64,000 nucleotides of DNA, taken from contig SCRJ01000130.1 of the NCBI GenBank assembly GCA_004298115.1, positions 1 through 64,000 of the forward strand, read 5' to 3'. The notes under the pieces were generated by a model. The model saw only the letters and a list, made by a program, of their open reading frames with translations. It had not been told where the DNA came from and searched no databases. How positions within the stretch are numbered: position 1 is the stretch's first letter; each line of letters begins with the position of its first letter. Positions 1,084 to 35,658 of this stretch are shown here, piece by piece. Source of the stretch: Acidobacteriota bacterium. GTDB lineage: Bacteria; Acidobacteriota; Thermoanaerobaculia; Thermoanaerobaculales; Thermoanaerobaculaceae. Both the position numbers and the translations under genes were made by a program.

Positions 1084-3534
1084 GTGGACGGCGTGGTGGA
1101 GGATCCCAAGGTCGGGGAGGCGCTTGCTGAGCTGCAACTCTACCTGTCCGACGCCGTCGCCCCACTGGTTGTCACCGACTCGATCACAATCCTGCTCGCC
1201 GTGCCGCCGTCCCGGGTCGCGCAGGAGATCCTGGCGTGGACCACGAGCCAACACCGGCGCCTTGGCGGCAGCGTCCCGGTCTCCGACTACCTCTACCACG
1301 CGATGCGCAAGCTGTACGTGATGGGCGAGCTGACCCTGGTCTCGAAGCCGGGGCTCGTCGCGTTCCTCGAGTCGCTGCAGGCGTACATGCTCGAGTTCTG
1401 TCCCGACGAGGACAGGGACCTGTTGCGCGAGAACCTGGCGCACCTCGGCGACGTGCGATCCGATCTCGCCGCTCCCGTCCTCAGTCTCCACCGCGCCCAG
1501 CAGGGAGAGTCGGCGCTGCGGATCGACGACCCGTCCGGCGTCGCGAAGACCACGGTCCACATGGAGCGCCGTTTCGCCCAGCTCGTGGAACGCCTGTCGC
1601 GCCTGCAGATCCCGACCGGTGGCGGGCAACAGCCGGGCGGCGCACGCGGTGACGTCCTCTCCCAGCTCGTGAGCGTCGCGGCGCGAAACTCGGCGGACGC
1701 GGAAGAGTTCGCGCAGTACAAGGAAAACCTGCGCGACGCCGGGATGGGGTCGACGATGGAGGACGTCTTCCGGTCGCTCGGTCGCCGCCTCCCCGGATGG
1801 GTGCTGCCGGCGGCGGCGGGAGCCGAGACGAGCGGAGCCACGGTCACGGCAACCGCCCAGGCGATGCAGCGCATCGTCGCCCTGGAGCAGGACCCCCGGG
1901 AAGCCGCGCGCCGCTTCCAGGAGCTCGTGCAGGCGGCGATCGAACAGCACAACGAGGGCTCGCTGCCGCGCGCGGTCACCATGCTCGACCTCGCCGGCCT
2001 CCTGCTCGCGGAGAAAAAGGTCGACCCGGCGTACGTCCAGGCGTTTCGCGAACAGGCGCACGAGAAGCTCGACGCCGGGCGCCTGCGCGGACTCGCCGAG
2101 GACCCCGGCTCGCACGCCCTCCTCAGGCGTGTGCTCGGGGCGTTCCCGGCCCTCGAGCCCGACGGTCTGCTGCGCGCGCTCCAGACGGAAGAGAAGCGCG
2201 AACACCGCCGCCTGCTGTTGGCGTTGCTCGAGGTCCACGGCGCCCCGGCGCGGGCCCTCGCCGCCGAGCGGCTCACGTCGTCGATCGAGAGCTTCGGCGA
2301 CCGCGATGCGCACTTCCAGAGGAACCTGCTGCACATCCTGCGCCGCATCCCGCGTCCTGCCGACGTCGTCATCGACGGCGAGCTCCAGACGGCGAGCCGG
2401 CTGTCCGCGCTCGGCCACCCCGCGATCCTGGCCAAGGAGGCCATCACCTACCTCGGCCAGAGCAGGGACGAACGCGCCGAACGCGCCCTGATCGCCCGCG
2501 TCGGCGAGTACGAGGCGGCGCTCGCCAAGCCCGGCGCGACGGGACAGGAGCCTGCGGAGCTGATGGCCGTCCTCGACCGCGCGGTGTTCGCGTTGGCTCG
2601 CCTCGGCACGCCGGGGGCGGTGCGGGCCGTGGTCAATCACGGCCTCAAGCGGCTTCCCCAGCTTGGCAACACGACGGCCAGGCTCGCCGCACTCGCCGGG
2701 ATCGACCTCTCGGGCGACCCCGAAACGGTCGAACGTCTCGTCGAGGCGATCCGGGGCGAGTTGCCGCACCGGATCTTCGGCTTCCTGCTCAAGAAGGACG
2801 ACACGCTCCTGCTGCCGCTCATCGAGGCGGTCTCATCCACGTCTTCGCCGGCGGTGAAGAACGTGCTCGCCGACATCGTGCAGCGTTTCCCCGGGGAGAG
2901 CTTCGCCCAGGCCGCGGCCAAGGTCCTGGCGGGCACCGACGTGTCCGCGCCGCAGGCGTCGGCGACGCCCGCGGCCCCATCGGCCAGCCTGTCCGGGGAT
3001 CTCGAGCTCTTCGGCCTGCCCACCCTGCTGCAGAACCTCTCGCAGTCCGGGACCTCCGGGACCCTCACGATCAGCGATCCCGTGGGGGAGGAGATCGCCA
3101 CCGTCGACCTCGAGGGAGGCAAGTTCCGCTCCTGCCGCGCGGGCCACCTGCGCGACGAGGTTGCGCTCTTTCAGCTGATCGAGCGGCCGACGCCGGCGTC
3201 GTTCACCTTTCTGAGCCGCGCCGAGTCCGCGCCCCCGTCCGACCCCAAGCTCCTGCGCGACCTCGTGCCCCTCTTTTTCGAGGGGACGCGCCGCTACGAC
3301 GAGTTCCAGCAAGCGTGCGCCCTGGTCCCGGACTACGCGTGCCTGCGCGCGACCGGGACCAAGCCGACGCCCCCGCCGGAGGAAGACGACCAGGCCCTGA
3401 TGCGCACGCTCTGGCAACGGGCGGTTTCGGGTTCGGCCGCGCTCGAGTGCGAGGCCGGACTGTCGATCGACGGATACCGGGCGCGCCGCATGCTGGCCCA
3501 CTGGGTCGAGGAGGGCTCTCTCGAGCCCAAGTAG
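1084..3534 (+). CDS. Helical-repeat protein with C-terminal DUF4388 domain
   Basis: The protein has 816 residues. I chose the GTG at 1084 because GGAGGGG ends 7 nt upstream; an earlier in-frame GTG at 1024 has no such site and would lie upstream of the predicted promoter. The first 600 residues are helix-rich and Leu/Ala-rich and look like an alpha-solenoid of HEAT-like repeats. There is no signal peptide or membrane segment, so it is probably cytoplasmic. Residues about 635-750 carry a DUF4388 (PATAN-like) domain, with a GDLELFGLPTLLQ opening and a glycine-rich strand pattern. An Ala/Pro/Ser linker precedes it. In Acidobacteriota and Myxococcota such domains often accompany signalling modules, so a scaffold or regulatory role is plausible, but no enzyme motif is seen. 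The function is not known. Confidence 0.75.
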   Translation: MDGVVEDPKVGEALAELQLYLSDAVAPLVVTDSITILLAVPPSRVAQEILAWTTSQHRRLGGSVPVSDYLYHAMRKLYVMGELTLVSKPGLVAFLESLQAYMLEFCPDEDRDLLRENLAHLGDVRSDLAAPVLSLHRAQQGESALRIDDPSGVAKTTVHMERRFAQLVERLSRLQIPTGGGQQPGGARGDVLSQLVSVAARNSADAEEFAQYKENLRDAGMGSTMEDVFRSLGRRLPGWVLPAAAGAETSGATVTATAQAMQRIVALEQDPREAARRFQELVQAAIEQHNEGSLPRAVTMLDLAGLLLAEKKVDPAYVQAFREQAHEKLDAGRLRGLAEDPGSHALLRRVLGAFPALEPDGLLRALQTEEKREHRRLLLALLEVHGAPARALAAERLTSSIESFGDRDAHFQRNLLHILRRIPRPADVVIDGELQTASRLSALGHPAILAKEAITYLGQSRDERAERALIARVGEYEAALAKPGATGQEPAELMAVLDRAVFALARLGTPGAVRAVVNHGLKRLPQLGNTTARLAALAGIDLSGDPETVERLVEAIRGELPHRIFGFLLKKDDTLLLPLIEAVSSTSSPAVKNVLADIVQRFPGESFAQAAAKVLAGTDVSAPQASATPAAPSASLSGDLELFGLPTLLQNLSQSGTSGTLTISDPVGEEIATVDLEGGKFRSCRAGHLRDEVALFQLIERPTPASFTFLSRAESAPPSDPKLLRDLVPLFFEGTRRYDEFQQACALVPDYACLRATGTKPTPPPEEDDQALMRTLWQRAVSGSAALECEAGLSIDGYRARRMLAHWVEEGSLEPK

Positions 3535-3549
3535 GGTCCGGCCGGGGAC

Positions 3550-3905
3550 CAGACCCGCGTCGCCGGCGCCGCCGTCCAGCGCCGGACGACCTCGGGCCAG
3601 TTCACCGGGTGTTGCGTCACGGCATCGACCCACTCGGCCCGCCGGCTCTGGTACCTGAGATGATCGGCGTGCTCCCAGACGTCGAGCACGAAGACCGGCA
3701 GCCACCCCGGCAGCAGCAGGTTCCGATGCGTTTCGACCTGGAGGATCGCAGGCGCCGGCTGCCGACCTCTGCGGCGAGCTTGTCGAGAGCGGCGTTGAGC
3801 GAGTTGACGAACGCGAGGTGATGCTTGCCGTGGTGGAGTCCGGGGGTTCGCGCGTCGTCGTGAGGTTCGAGCGCGTCGAGGGGGCAGGGGAGCCGCGGCA
3901 GGCGG
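3550..3905 (-). pseudogene. Decayed Fe/Mn superoxide dismutase
   Basis: Two separated parts of one SOD can be read on the minus strand in different frames. The N-terminal part (about 3899-3767) reads [16 protein letters not shown], then [18 protein letters not shown], matching the family's LPYALDALEPHID...HHGKHH opening with its first histidine ligand. The C-terminal part (3749 to about 3560) reads [15 protein letters not shown], then [20 protein letters not shown], matching the conserved DVWEHAYYLQYQNRR end with its metal ligands. The middle of the protein (roughly 70-100 residues, including the second histidine ligand) is missing. The two parts are one frame apart at about 3750-3767, and no start codon with a good context is seen. 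It is therefore a pseudogene. The remaining 130 bases up to the transhydrogenase stop hold nothing recognisable. Confidence 0.8.
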
Positions 3906-4040
3906 GCTCTCTCCCTGGTGGCTCCCTTCGGATCCGGGGCGATCGCGGACGACGTTGCGCCGCCCGTTGGACGTTCTCGTGTCGTGCTTGAGACGATAGG
4001 ACGGCCGCCGTCGGGCGTCGAACCCGGGGCGGCGCCCGGC

Positions 4041-5471
4041 TCAGCGCGGCGCGGTGGCCGTGCTTGAGGCGGCGCGCTGGACGGCGAGCAACGCCTTGAG
4101 CGCCGCGTGCCGGTAGAGGTCGGAGAGCGTCGGATAGTTGTACGGCGTCTCGGCGATCTGATACGCGGTGGCGCCGGCGCGCAGGAACGCCTGCCCGATG
4201 TGGATCAGCTCGCTGGCGCCGTGGCCGATCATGTGTGCGCCCAGCAGACGCATCGAGGGGTCCTCGAACAGCAGTTTCAGCATCCCCTCGGTGTCGCCGA
4301 TGATCTGGCCGCGCGGGTTCATGTCGTAGTTCCCGCGTCCGACGACGTACGCAGCGCCCCTCCCGGCGAGCGACTCCTCGGTCTCACCGACGTAACTGAC
4401 CTCCGGAATCGCGTAGATCGCGAACGGCAGCGTTTCGGTCCTCTGGGTCAGTCCGGGGATGTTGAACGCGTGGCGCATCGCCTGGCGCCCCTGCTCCATC
4501 GAGGTGCTGGCAAGGGCGGGATAACCGATCACGTCGCCCACCGCGTAGACGTGCGGCAGCGCCGTCTGGTAGTGCTCGTTCACGGTCAAAAGCCCGTAGT
4601 CGTTCGGAACCAGGCCGAGCACTTCGAGGCCGATCCCCTTGGTGTTGCCGTCGCGCCCGACGCAGTACAGGAGCACGTCGCCCTCGAGCGTCCCGGCGCG
4701 CCGGAGCGTGCAGCGCACGCGGTGCCGACTCCCGGGGATCCGCTCGATCGCCGTGTGCCTGTCGTCGTGGAGGATCGTGATGCCGAGCCTGGCGATCTCG
4801 CGCTCCAGGATCGCGGCGATCTCGCGGTCGAGGTAGGGCAGGAGCCGATCGCGCGTGTCGACGAGGGTGACGCCGATGCCGAGGGCGGCGAAGATGCTGG
4901 CGAACTCCACCCCGATCACGCCCGCGCCGAGGACGATCATCGTCTTCGGCAGGTGGGGAAGGGAGAGGATCGTGTTGCTGTCCAGGACGGACTCGCCGTC
5001 GAACGGAACGTCGATCGGGCGGTTGGGACTCGAGCCGGTCGCGATGACGATGAAGTCGGCGCCCATCGAGAGCAGCACGCTGCCGTCAGGTCCGCAGACC
5101 GCCACGGTGTGGGCGTCGACGAAGCGGGCATGGCCGACGAACACCTCGACGCGATAGCGGCCGAGCGACTCGTTGATCAATTCGAGTTCGCGCTGGACGA
5201 CCACCCTCTCGCGGTGCATGAAGTCGTGGACGGTGATCTCGTTCGGGATCTCGCAGTGGATCCCTTCGAGCTTGTCGCGTTCGATGGCGTGCACGAAGAC
5301 GGCGCTTTCGCGCAGCGTCTTCGAAGGAATGGTGCCCCAGTTGACGCGGGTGCCGCCGAGGACGTGCTGCCGCTCGACCACCGCCACCTGCTTGCCCGCC
5401 CGCGCGGCCTGAATCGCGGCGCGCTCGCCGCCGGGCCCGCACCCGATCACGATCACGTCGAAGTGCCGCAT
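4041..5471 (-). CDS. sthA: Soluble (Si-specific) NAD(P)+ transhydrogenase, SthA type
   Basis: This is a 476-residue flavoprotein of the dihydrolipoamide dehydrogenase fold that exchanges hydride between NADPH and NAD+ in the cytoplasm. The FAD site [10 protein letters not shown] is at the N-terminus and the nucleotide-binding [11 protein letters not shown] is in the middle. The C-terminal dimerisation domain includes the [14 protein letters not shown] end. The family hallmark [11 protein letters not shown] is present. Where lipoamide dehydrogenases have a redox CxxxxC pair, this protein reads RVNWGT: the second cysteine is replaced, as is normal for SthA, and the first is also absent. The ATG at 5471 is preferred because GGGAGGGG lies just upstream; an in-frame ATG 15 nt earlier would place that site inside the gene. 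The next gene is divergent. The adjacent SOD remnant on the same strand may reflect an old oxidative-stress neighbourhood. Confidence 0.88.
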
Positions 5472-5613
5472 GGACCCCTCCCGCATCGCCCGAAACGATC
5501 GCCCTCCGCCGCGCGGGCCCCGGCCCCACGTCGTCCCGCCACCGGGGATCGTACCAGAGAGGGCGTCTCGGTCGGCGCGGCCTGCGGGCGATCGCCCCGA
5601 GGCCTTGCGCCGC

Positions 5614-33211: not shown

Positions 33212-33637
33212 ATGCGTTGGCTGGCGCTCGACGTTGGAACCCGGCGGGTCGGGGTGGCGGTGTGCGATGCCGACGAACGGGTCGCGTCGAGCCTGCACGC
33301 GTTCGCCTACGCGGGACCCGAGGGGGTCGCCGAAGCCGTGGCCGGCCTGGTCCGAACCTGGGAGGTCGAGGGCGTCGTGGTGGGTGTGCCGTTGACGCGC
33401 TCGGGCCAGGGGCGGGGCGAGCGCCGGGTGGCCGGCGTGGTGGCTGCGCTGCGGCGAAGGCTCGAGGTTCCGATCCAGACCGCCGATGAGCGCGGGACGA
33501 CGGCCGCAGCCGAGGAACTCCTGGCGGCGGGCGGCGTGCCGCGGCGGCGGTGGCCCGAGCTGGTGGACGGCGTGGCCGCCCGTCTCATCCTGGAACGCCA
33601 CCTCGCGAACCGATCGGTTTCCCCGGCGAGGCGTTGA
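33212..33637 (+). CDS. ruvX: Putative pre-16S rRNA nuclease YqgF/RuvX
   Basis: 141 residues, RNase H-like fold. MRWLALDVGTRRVGVAVCD carries the first catalytic aspartate; VEGVVVGVPLTRSGQGRGE and IQTADERGTTAAAEELL the other conserved motifs; and VDGVAARLILERHL the last aspartate. The family finishes the 5' end of 16S rRNA and has also been proposed as a Holliday-junction resolvase. Its stop is 49 nt before the pseudokinase gene on the same strand. Confidence 0.9.
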   Translation: MRWLALDVGTRRVGVAVCDADERVASSLHAFAYAGPEGVAEAVAGLVRTWEVEGVVVGVPLTRSGQGRGERRVAGVVAALRRRLEVPIQTADERGTTAAAEELLAAGGVPRRRWPELVDGVAARLILERHLANRSVSPARR

Positions 33638-33686
33638 CCTCGCAGGGGCCGGGTGTTAGCGTGACCGAAGTTCGGGAGGGCCTGAG

Positions 33687-35612
33687 ATGGCCGACACCTA
33701 TTCGAGCTTCGGGAAGTTCCTCCTCCTCAAACAGCGAAGCCAGGACGGGCTTGGCACGCTGTGGCGCGCGGGGGAAATGGAGCACGACAGCTTTCGCAGA
33801 ATCGTCTGGCTGCGACGCTTCGATCAGACGGGGTTGAACCGCGCCGCCTTGAGCGCGGAGATCGCTGCGGCCAACCAGGTATCTCAAGTCCTGAAGGCGA
33901 CCAACGTGGTTCGGAACGCCGTCTGCGGCAGCGAAGACGGGGTGCCGTTCGCGGCGTGGGACTACGTGCCCGCGCAACCCCTCGACCAACTCATGGCGCG
34001 GGCGGCCTCCGAGCAGTTCCCGATCGCGATCGACAACGCTCTCCTGATCGTCGAGAAGATGGCGGCCGCGCTGGCGGCGGCGGCGGCGGTCGAGGTTCAG
34101 GGCGAGGCGCTGGTGCACGGCTTCCTCGTGCCGCACCTGGTCATGATCGGCAACGACGGCGAAGCGATGGTGGCGGGTTTCGGCCTCGCGCGCGGACTGC
34201 GCGCGAACCTCGACCGTGTGGCCCTGAAGCGGACGGCCGCGCCGTACCTCGCGCCCGAGGTCTTGGCGAACGGCCCGGCCACGCGCCGGTCCGACGTCTA
34301 CTCGCTCGGGGCCATCCTGTTCCAACTGCTCTGCGGACAGCCGCTGCCGGCGGACCCGGCCGGGCGCGCCGCGGCTCTCGAGCACCCGTCCCTCGCGTTC
34401 GAGGAAGGTCCGGTTCCCGCCGACGTGCTCGCGATCCTGGCGAAGACGCTCTCGCCCAAGGCGGACGATCGCTTCGCGACCGCCGCCGACTTCAAGCGTG
34501 AGCTCGAGAAGCTCCTGTACGGCGGCGCGTACTCGCCCACCACCTTCAACCTCGCCCTGTTCATGGACCGCCTGTACCGCAACGAGATCGAGCAAGAGGA
34601 CCGCGAGGTCCAACGCGAGCGGGGCCTCGACGTCGCGGCGCACTACCAGCCTCCCAAGGTCGAGGAACCCGAGCCTGCGCGCGCGGCTCCCAGCCGCACC
34701 GGGATGCTTGCCGCCATCATCGGCGGCGCCGTGATCCTGCTCGGTGTGATCGGGTACCTCGTCTTCAGCCGGCCGGCCTCGCCGCCCGCCCTCGATTCTG
34801 ACGCGCAGAAGAAGATGTTGCAGGAGCTGGTGAACACGCAGGTGGCGCAGGCGCTCCAGGAGAAGGAAAACCAGCTGCGCCAGGAACTCGAGGCCGAGAA
34901 GGCCAAGACCGAGGAGTTGCGCAAGCAACTCGCCACGCAAAAGCAGGGTCCGGCCGCCAGACAGATCTCGCCCGACGAGCAGCAGAGGCTGCAACGGGAG
35001 TTGGCGTCGCGCGAGGCGGAGCAGAAGCGGAAAGAGGACGAGTTGGCGAAGGTGAAGCAACAGCAGGAAGCCGAGGCGGCGAAGGCCCGCCAGCAGCAGG
35101 CGCAGGCGAGCGCCAGGGCGGCGCTGCCGCCGACTGCGATTCCGACCGCCGTGGCCGCGCCGACCGCGGTGCCTGCGGCCGTCGCCACTCGCGTTCCGGT
35201 GGCCGCGGTGCCGCCCCCGACGGCCGCGCCGCCGCCGCCGCCCCCGACCGCGGAGGTGCCGGTCACGACCGGTCTCGGCTCCGGCGTGCGCGAGGGCGAT
35301 CTCGTGGACTTCACCCAGGTCGACGTGCAACCGCAGAGTCTCGTCGAGGCCAAGGTGACGGTGCCGCGCATCGCGATGCTCACGAGGTCCGCGGTCAGCG
35401 GCTATGTGATCCTGAGGGTGCTCGTCAACGAGAAGGGAGGCGTGGACGACGTGCAGGTGCTGCGGCCGTTCCAGCCCGCGCGCCCCGAGATCGACAAGGC
35501 GTGCATCGAGGCCGTCAAGCAGAACCGGTACCGGCCGGCGATGAAGGACGGCCACCAGGTCAAGACCTGGATCACGGTGACCAAACAGATCGTGATCCAG
35601 CCGGCCCGGTAG
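33687..35612 (+). CDS. Pseudokinase - coiled coil - TonB C-terminal fusion protein
   Basis: 641 residues. Residues about 5-280 have the order of a Ser/Thr kinase fold, with YLAPEVL (APE motif, 187-193) and RSDVYSLGAILFQLLCG (201-217). All key catalytic residues are missing, however: the strand-3 lysine is arginine in VWLRRF (40-45), HRDxKxxN reads HGFLVPHLVMI, and DFG reads GFG (164-166). One membrane helix follows at about 338-361. Next come a Gln/Glu/Lys-rich coiled coil (about 375-480), a Pro/Ala/Thr-rich linker (about 482-535) and a TonB-like C-terminal domain (about 545-641: VSGYVILRVLVNEKGGVDDVQVL, EAVKQNRYRPAMKDG). It is probably anchored in the inner membrane with the TonB part in the periplasm. 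GGGAGG lies 7 nt before the ATG, and a strong terminator follows. Confidence 0.82.
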   Translation: MADTYSSFGKFLLLKQRSQDGLGTLWRAGEMEHDSFRRIVWLRRFDQTGLNRAALSAEIAAANQVSQVLKATNVVRNAVCGSEDGVPFAAWDYVPAQPLDQLMARAASEQFPIAIDNALLIVEKMAAALAAAAAVEVQGEALVHGFLVPHLVMIGNDGEAMVAGFGLARGLRANLDRVALKRTAAPYLAPEVLANGPATRRSDVYSLGAILFQLLCGQPLPADPAGRAAALEHPSLAFEEGPVPADVLAILAKTLSPKADDRFATAADFKRELEKLLYGGAYSPTTFNLALFMDRLYRNEIEQEDREVQRERGLDVAAHYQPPKVEEPEPARAAPSRTGMLAAIIGGAVILLGVIGYLVFSRPASPPALDSDAQKKMLQELVNTQVAQALQEKENQLRQELEAEKAKTEELRKQLATQKQGPAARQISPDEQQRLQRELASREAEQKRKEDELAKVKQQQEAEAAKARQQQAQASARAALPPTAIPTAVAAPTAVPAAVATRVPVAAVPPPTAAPPPPPPTAEVPVTTGLGSGVREGDLVDFTQVDVQPQSLVEAKVTVPRIAMLTRSAVSGYVILRVLVNEKGGVDDVQVLRPFQPARPEIDKACIEAVKQNRYRPAMKDGHQVKTWITVTKQIVIQPAR

Positions 35613-35635: not shown

Positions 35636-35658
35636 GGCCCGCCCCGTGGCGGGCCTTT
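35636..35658 (+). terminator. Rho-independent terminator after the pseudokinase-TonB gene
   Basis: GGCCCGCC-CCGT-GGCGGGCC forms an 8-bp GC stem with a 4-nt loop followed by TTT. It lies 24 nt after the stop codon, in the convergent gap with rho. Confidence 0.75.

Follow-up and report, generated by a model that had tools for sequence, protein, structure and literature searches.

What could a protein do that joins a kinase fold without catalytic residues to a TonB domain, and is it a working part of the cell envelope, a component of the Ton system or a kinase gene in decay? The gene raising this question lies at 33687-35612 (+) of the window, by which we mean the whole 64,000-nucleotide stretch of DNA that was analysed. 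To our knowledge, a function has been assigned to only a few bacterial pseudokinases, and the fixed architecture, signature motif, candidate active partner and conserved neighbours of the family described here make the role of a dead kinase in bacteria directly testable.

Parts of the gene and its protein

The gene is a single uninterrupted frame with an ATG start and 641 codons without a stop, preceded by a likely ribosome-binding site (GGGAGGG, 33674-33680, +, 6 nt before the ATG), and its orthologues are full length at 53-86% identity. Its 641-residue product, encoded throughout on the forward strand, begins with a pseudokinase domain (residues 1-277, 33687-34517) that is followed by the motif YGGAYSPTTFNLALFMDRLYRNEIEQED (residues 278-305, 34518-34601), which homologue conservation marks as specific to the family. 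Behind these the sequence reads as a transmembrane helix (about residues 339-361, 34701-34769), and composition marks out a charged, coiled-coil-like stretch with 55% E/K/Q/R (residues 370-470, 34794-35096) and a linker rich in Pro, Ala, Thr and Val (residues 479-532, 35121-35282), before the protein closes with a TonB C-terminal domain (residues 545-641, 35319-35609).

Both end domains are recognised by Pfam above the curated cut-offs, Pkinase over residues 65-221 (E=1e-10) and TonB_C (PF03544) over residues 567-631 (E=2.3e-10). The sequence profile places the window protein in the Hanks (eukaryotic-like) kinase superfamily, and a profile of 65 homologues searched against the PDB retrieved StkP, PknA and PknB with E-values near 1e-32 or lower, with PknE also among the matches. 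The structure model of the pseudokinase domain, built on six sequences, has low confidence (pLDDT 54) and is taken as weak fold support only; its best matches are the same bacterial Ser/Thr kinases (StkP, PknA, PknB and PknE). The TonB_C model reached pLDDT 79, with TonB C-terminal domains as best PDB matches (6i97, 6fip and 1u07, probability 1.00; Foldseek E 1.2e-3 at best). The missing signal sequence and the types of domain suggest that the kinase part would be cytoplasmic and the TonB arm periplasmic. Charges flanking the helix lean weakly the same way across the family (mean net 0.97 on the N-terminal side versus 0.65 on the C-terminal side; 55 versus 30 of 110 members) and are uninformative for the window protein itself.

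Evaluating the kinase part by alignment with its homologues revealed the replacements that the earlier note had read from the letters of this gene. The lysine of strand beta-3 is Arg43 in VWLRRF (residues 40-45, 33804-33821), the former catalytic loop reads HGFLVPH without the HRD aspartate or the catalytic asparagine (residues 144-150, 34116-34136), and the former DFG has become GFG (residues 164-166, 34176-34184). Also missing are the alpha-C glutamate and the glycines at the start of the Gly-loop. Of the four residues by which we judged a Ser/Thr kinase to be active (beta-3 Lys, HRD Asp, catalytic Asn, DFG Asp), none is present. Structural landmarks are kept, likewise as the note had it, with APE at residues 189-191 (34251-34259) and SDVYSLG at residues 202-208 (34290-34310). 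Judged from its sequence, the fold thus retains none of the residues that ATP/Mg binding and phosphotransfer require, and with VAIK, HRD and DFG each degraded across a conserved clade the domain is a pseudokinase by its motifs.

Gene neighbours and energy coupling

Directly upstream, across a 49-nt gap, lies ruvX (yqgF; 33212-33637, +; Pfam RuvX 2.9e-29), with which the probable transcription unit begins. To place this arrangement in context, we counted neighbours from GC3-filtered gene calls and HMMs at the 109 loci whose upstream sequence spans 1.3 kb or more, which revealed ruvX upstream on the same strand at 72 of them and mltG at 57, mostly adjacent and with short gaps. Across most of the class the pseudokinase gene follows ruvX-mltG, the neighbours being assigned by Pfam, and the family of the window's genome (f1) has the order lptD(-), ruvX, pseudokinase, rho(-). 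Between the pseudokinase gene and the converging rho, a GC-rich hairpin (GGCCCGCC-CCGT-GGCGGGCC, window positions 35636-35655) is followed by TTTCC and is the probable shared terminator of the two genes.

These neighbours raise the reading that the protein is a peptidoglycan regulator dedicated to MltG, encoded in a ruvX-mltG-pseudokinase operon and tuning MltG at the inner membrane. It draws on the recurrent same-strand linkage just described and on the finding that, in Enterococcus faecalis, the Ser/Thr kinase IreK phosphorylates MltG directly (PMC12369325), which lends plausibility to a function in the envelope. Yet no YceG/MltG was found by Pfam profile in any of the seven f1 genomes, including that of the window (G000, G020, G024, G028, G032, G048 and G060), although all of them keep the pseudokinase and mltG was found in all 54 other class genomes searched; f1 thus appears to have lost this endolytic transglycosylase lineage-wide, beside ruvX. 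Conversely, genus g22 (L159-L162) keeps ruvX-mltG with the pseudokinase cleanly missing downstream, and in families outside the class neither ruvX nor mltG adjoins the pseudokinase, other genes flanking it instead. Because each gene is dispensable to the other in these lineages, we reject an obligate partnership with MltG, and a dedicated MltG regulator of any kind seems improbable.

We hold it about equally improbable that the protein is a signalling pseudokinase controlling TonB-dependent receptors or Ton energy coupling, as the earlier note had proposed. The TonB fold itself, seen by sequence and in the structure model, speaks for that reading, as does a genome (3.97-Mb assembly, 203 contigs, with the window on contig C185) that holds 12 Plug-domain receptor matches, two ExbB (contigs C3 and C124) and three ExbD (C3 and C199). 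However, TonB and TolA dock on ExbB or TolQ through an SHLS motif whose histidine, in the transmembrane helix, is essential for association with the stator and use of the proton motive force (PMC8928145), and neither a histidine in the helix nor an SxxxH pattern occurs in any of 110 pseudokinase family members, the window protein included. The genome moreover has a canonical TonB-ExbB-ExbD-ExbD cluster of its own on contig C3, with a histidine in the helix of its TonB. That the helix lacks histidine throughout the family and that a canonical Ton cluster lies elsewhere make coupling of the pseudokinase-TonB protein to ExbB/ExbD unlikely.

Contig C185 carries no ExbB, ExbD or Plug-domain match, in keeping with the note's remark that no ExbB/ExbD genes are nearby, and all 12 receptor matches are on other contigs. 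The note's proposed check, whether homologues sit near particular TonB-dependent receptors, came out negative: no such receptor is a conserved neighbour, only a handful of loci have a receptor-like gene downstream, and what recurs beside the gene in the class is ruvX and mltG instead. Binding of receptors by the TonB_C domain is possible. At two loci of family f20 (L113 and L136), a conventional TonB-like protein (TonB_2) with a His-bearing transmembrane helix is encoded directly upstream of the pseudokinase.

Age and constraint of the family

Matches at E <= 1e-20 occur in 120 of 148 class genomes and 72 of 247 genomes of the phylum sample, some of the weaker ones being active paralogues, and the named relatives, which share 85-53% identity, are Acidobacteria, Thermoanaerobaculaceae and Holophagae MAGs. 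Our set of homologous kinases comprises 132 distinct sequences, of which 18 are active and 114 lack the catalytic set; the latter are spread through Acidobacteriota and show the same pattern of replacement as the window protein, which speaks against chance as its source. Because sorting the two sets by catalytic motifs is circular when taken alone, a tree was built with the catalytic columns removed, and it too split pseudokinases from active kinases by a single branch (SH-aLRT 100).

The dead set is also recognisable by what it has kept. An HG..xP pattern in the old catalytic loop is common to the pseudokinases and missing from the active kinases (H144 in 107, G145 in 108 and P149 in 110 of the 114), and the post-kinase motif [ST]TFNLAF..xLFR.E.E, also common to the pseudokinases, was not seen in the active paralogues examined. 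F287, G158 and G584 are invariant in the pseudokinase family, and T286, N288 and A290 are conserved to at least 90%. The architecture is similarly stable: of 65 diverse members, Pfam recognises TonB_C in 63 and Pkinase in 57, and the transmembrane helix is present in 110 of the 114. In one genome (G001, L076), two pseudokinase-TonB genes stand in tandem at 1543-3639 and 3648-5600, both without catalytic residues.

One might ask whether the protein is no pure pseudokinase and instead transfers nucleotides on a kinase fold, as SelO or SidJ do. The HG of the former HRD recalls Hgvmntdn of SelO (PMC12599244, Table 1), and arginine stands in for the lysine at position 43 in 81 of the 114. SelO, however, keeps the lysine, the asparagine and the DFG-type aspartate, whereas here Lys43 is found in 4, Asn151 in 2 and Asp164 in about 13 of the 114, never together with the HRD aspartate (position 146), which all 114 lack. 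As this set of retained residues is not seen, SelO-like catalysis is unlikely, and we give an enzyme of this kind very little credence.

Within-genus comparisons gave dN/dS values of 0.07-0.125 for the pseudokinase, about 0.24 for the linker and 0.17-0.56 for TonB_C, and no other large part of the protein is as constrained as the dead domain. A recently decayed kinase gene or pseudogene, for which nothing speaks beyond the loss of catalytic residues itself, can be dismissed, since the orthologues are dead throughout the phylum, the 641 codons hold no stop, purifying selection is strong and the dead state has one origin on the tree. The note had named homologues with intact catalytic residues as a sign of such decay, and only paralogues proved active; its picture of an adapted pseudokinase joined to TonB_C across one membrane helix is thereby borne out, the loss of the catalytic set being constitutive among orthologues. 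This is very probably an old, phylum-wide family of working signalling or scaffold proteins and no broken gene.

An active paralogue and the known pseudokinases

What such a protein might work with is suggested by a second gene of the window's genome, on contig C150 (G000:C150:35266-37215; locus L087, protein P0003), which encodes an active kinase-TM-TonB_C paralogue whose N-terminus is cut by the contig end (Pkinase 6e-42, TonB_C 8.7e-18; AIK, HRDVSPQN and DFG intact). The two types share the order of parts, a GDLV motif before TonB_C and a related TonB_C domain; the active type differs in its intact catalytic residues and HRDVSPQN loop, in lacking the TFNLA motif and in its length, often about 800-1100 residues. 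In a tree of TonB_C domains, those of the active and dead types form a group outside which most others of the genome fall (SH-aLRT 94), and resolution within this group is weak.

Of 41 class genomes, 33 hold an orthologue of the active paralogue. The other eight comprise seven g22 genomes, where the pseudokinase is missing too, and G029, where the pseudokinase is present; a single event in the lineage probably accounts for the joint absence in g22. This co-occurrence may simply reflect that both proteins are near-universal in the class.

Comparing the C-terminal tails of the two types (leaving out L096, and L029, L094 and L099, which lie on truncated contigs) revealed a same-genome TonB_C similarity of 0.41 versus 0.36 when shuffled, a permutation result that is significant, uncorrected for phylogeny and confounded by it, so that we draw only on two clear exchanges. 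In the pseudokinase L031 (G044), TonB_C is 64% identical to active tails and at most 42% to pseudokinase tails, whereas its kinase part is 51-67% identical to the pseudokinases of its own family and 26% to the active kinases; in the pseudokinase L121 (G172), TonB_C matches the active tail from the same genome at 70% identity. Over the C-terminal 90 residues, both resemble the outcome of gene conversion or of a domain swap between paralogues, in two independent cases. Such swaps hint at a common job for the TonB arms of the pseudokinase and the active kinase.

Our preferred reading is that the protein is a trans-envelope pseudokinase that serves as scaffold or allosteric partner of the active kinase-TM-TonB_C paralogue, its candidate partner, and we give it a probability of roughly 45%. 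Both TonB-like arms would reach into the periplasm and bind the same outer-membrane or cell-wall partner, and would report the state of the envelope to the cytoplasm; there, the dead fold might hold the active kinase or be phosphorylated by it, as PknB uses the MviN pseudokinase; ExbB/ExbD would probably not drive the protein. Its role would then probably lie in envelope homeostasis. Against the partner model stands G029, with its pseudokinase and no close active orthologue. The further step, by which Acidobacteriota would have a two-protein trans-envelope unit of an active and a dead Ser/Thr kinase, with TonB-like arms not powered by ExbB/ExbD and the dead kinase as the obligate allosteric or scaffold half, we regard as a doubtful extension.

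A 2025 review of bacterial pseudokinases names ActPs1-3, GLW, CP1, DYD and DLHK together with EssB, SidJ and SelO (PMC12599244). Its text mentions neither TonB nor Acidobacter, and the HG[FA]xxP motif with the TonB fusion matches no family as described in that text or its Table 1. Among the papers searched, none joined TonB, a kinase domain and Acidobacteria. Compared by description with the families of this one review, we rate the proteins as a putative new pseudokinase family with a new fusion.

Among known systems, the TonB energy transducer shares the transmembrane helix, the Pro-rich arm and the C-terminal fold. The window protein differs from it in lacking the SHLS motif with its histidine and linked ExbB/ExbD, and in carrying its helix mid-protein, behind a cytoplasmic domain of 300 residues; pseudokinase-TonB thus joins a TonB-fold domain to a signalling domain, with no ExbB-coupled motor segment. 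In the GLW pseudokinases, too, a transmembrane helix follows the domain, bulky residues occupy the place of the ATP lysine and HRD is lost (PMC12599244), but they are proteobacterial, carry GLW and not HG[FA]xxP, have leucine or tryptophan and not arginine at beta-3, and have no reported TonB domain. EssB/YukC of Firmicutes type VII secretion offers a single transmembrane helix and a cytoplasmic dead kinase fold acting as a scaffold (PMC12599244), yet it has Ytfvlapd and TRG motifs, no TonB domain and a tie to T7SSb. The pseudokinase domain of MviN (MurJ) from Mycobacterium tuberculosis, an ActPs3 member, is actinobacterial, has no TonB domain and is fused to a transmembrane protein on which peptidoglycan synthesis depends, and its motifs are degraded in their own way (HRD to Lsidhpsr, DFG to Y--, with a deletion in the activation loop) (PMC12599244). 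Like the family described here, it is membrane-associated with all three motifs degraded, has an envelope function and has an active Ser/Thr kinase as partner, PknB, which phosphorylates the C-terminal tail of MviN and so recruits FhaA (PMC12599244).
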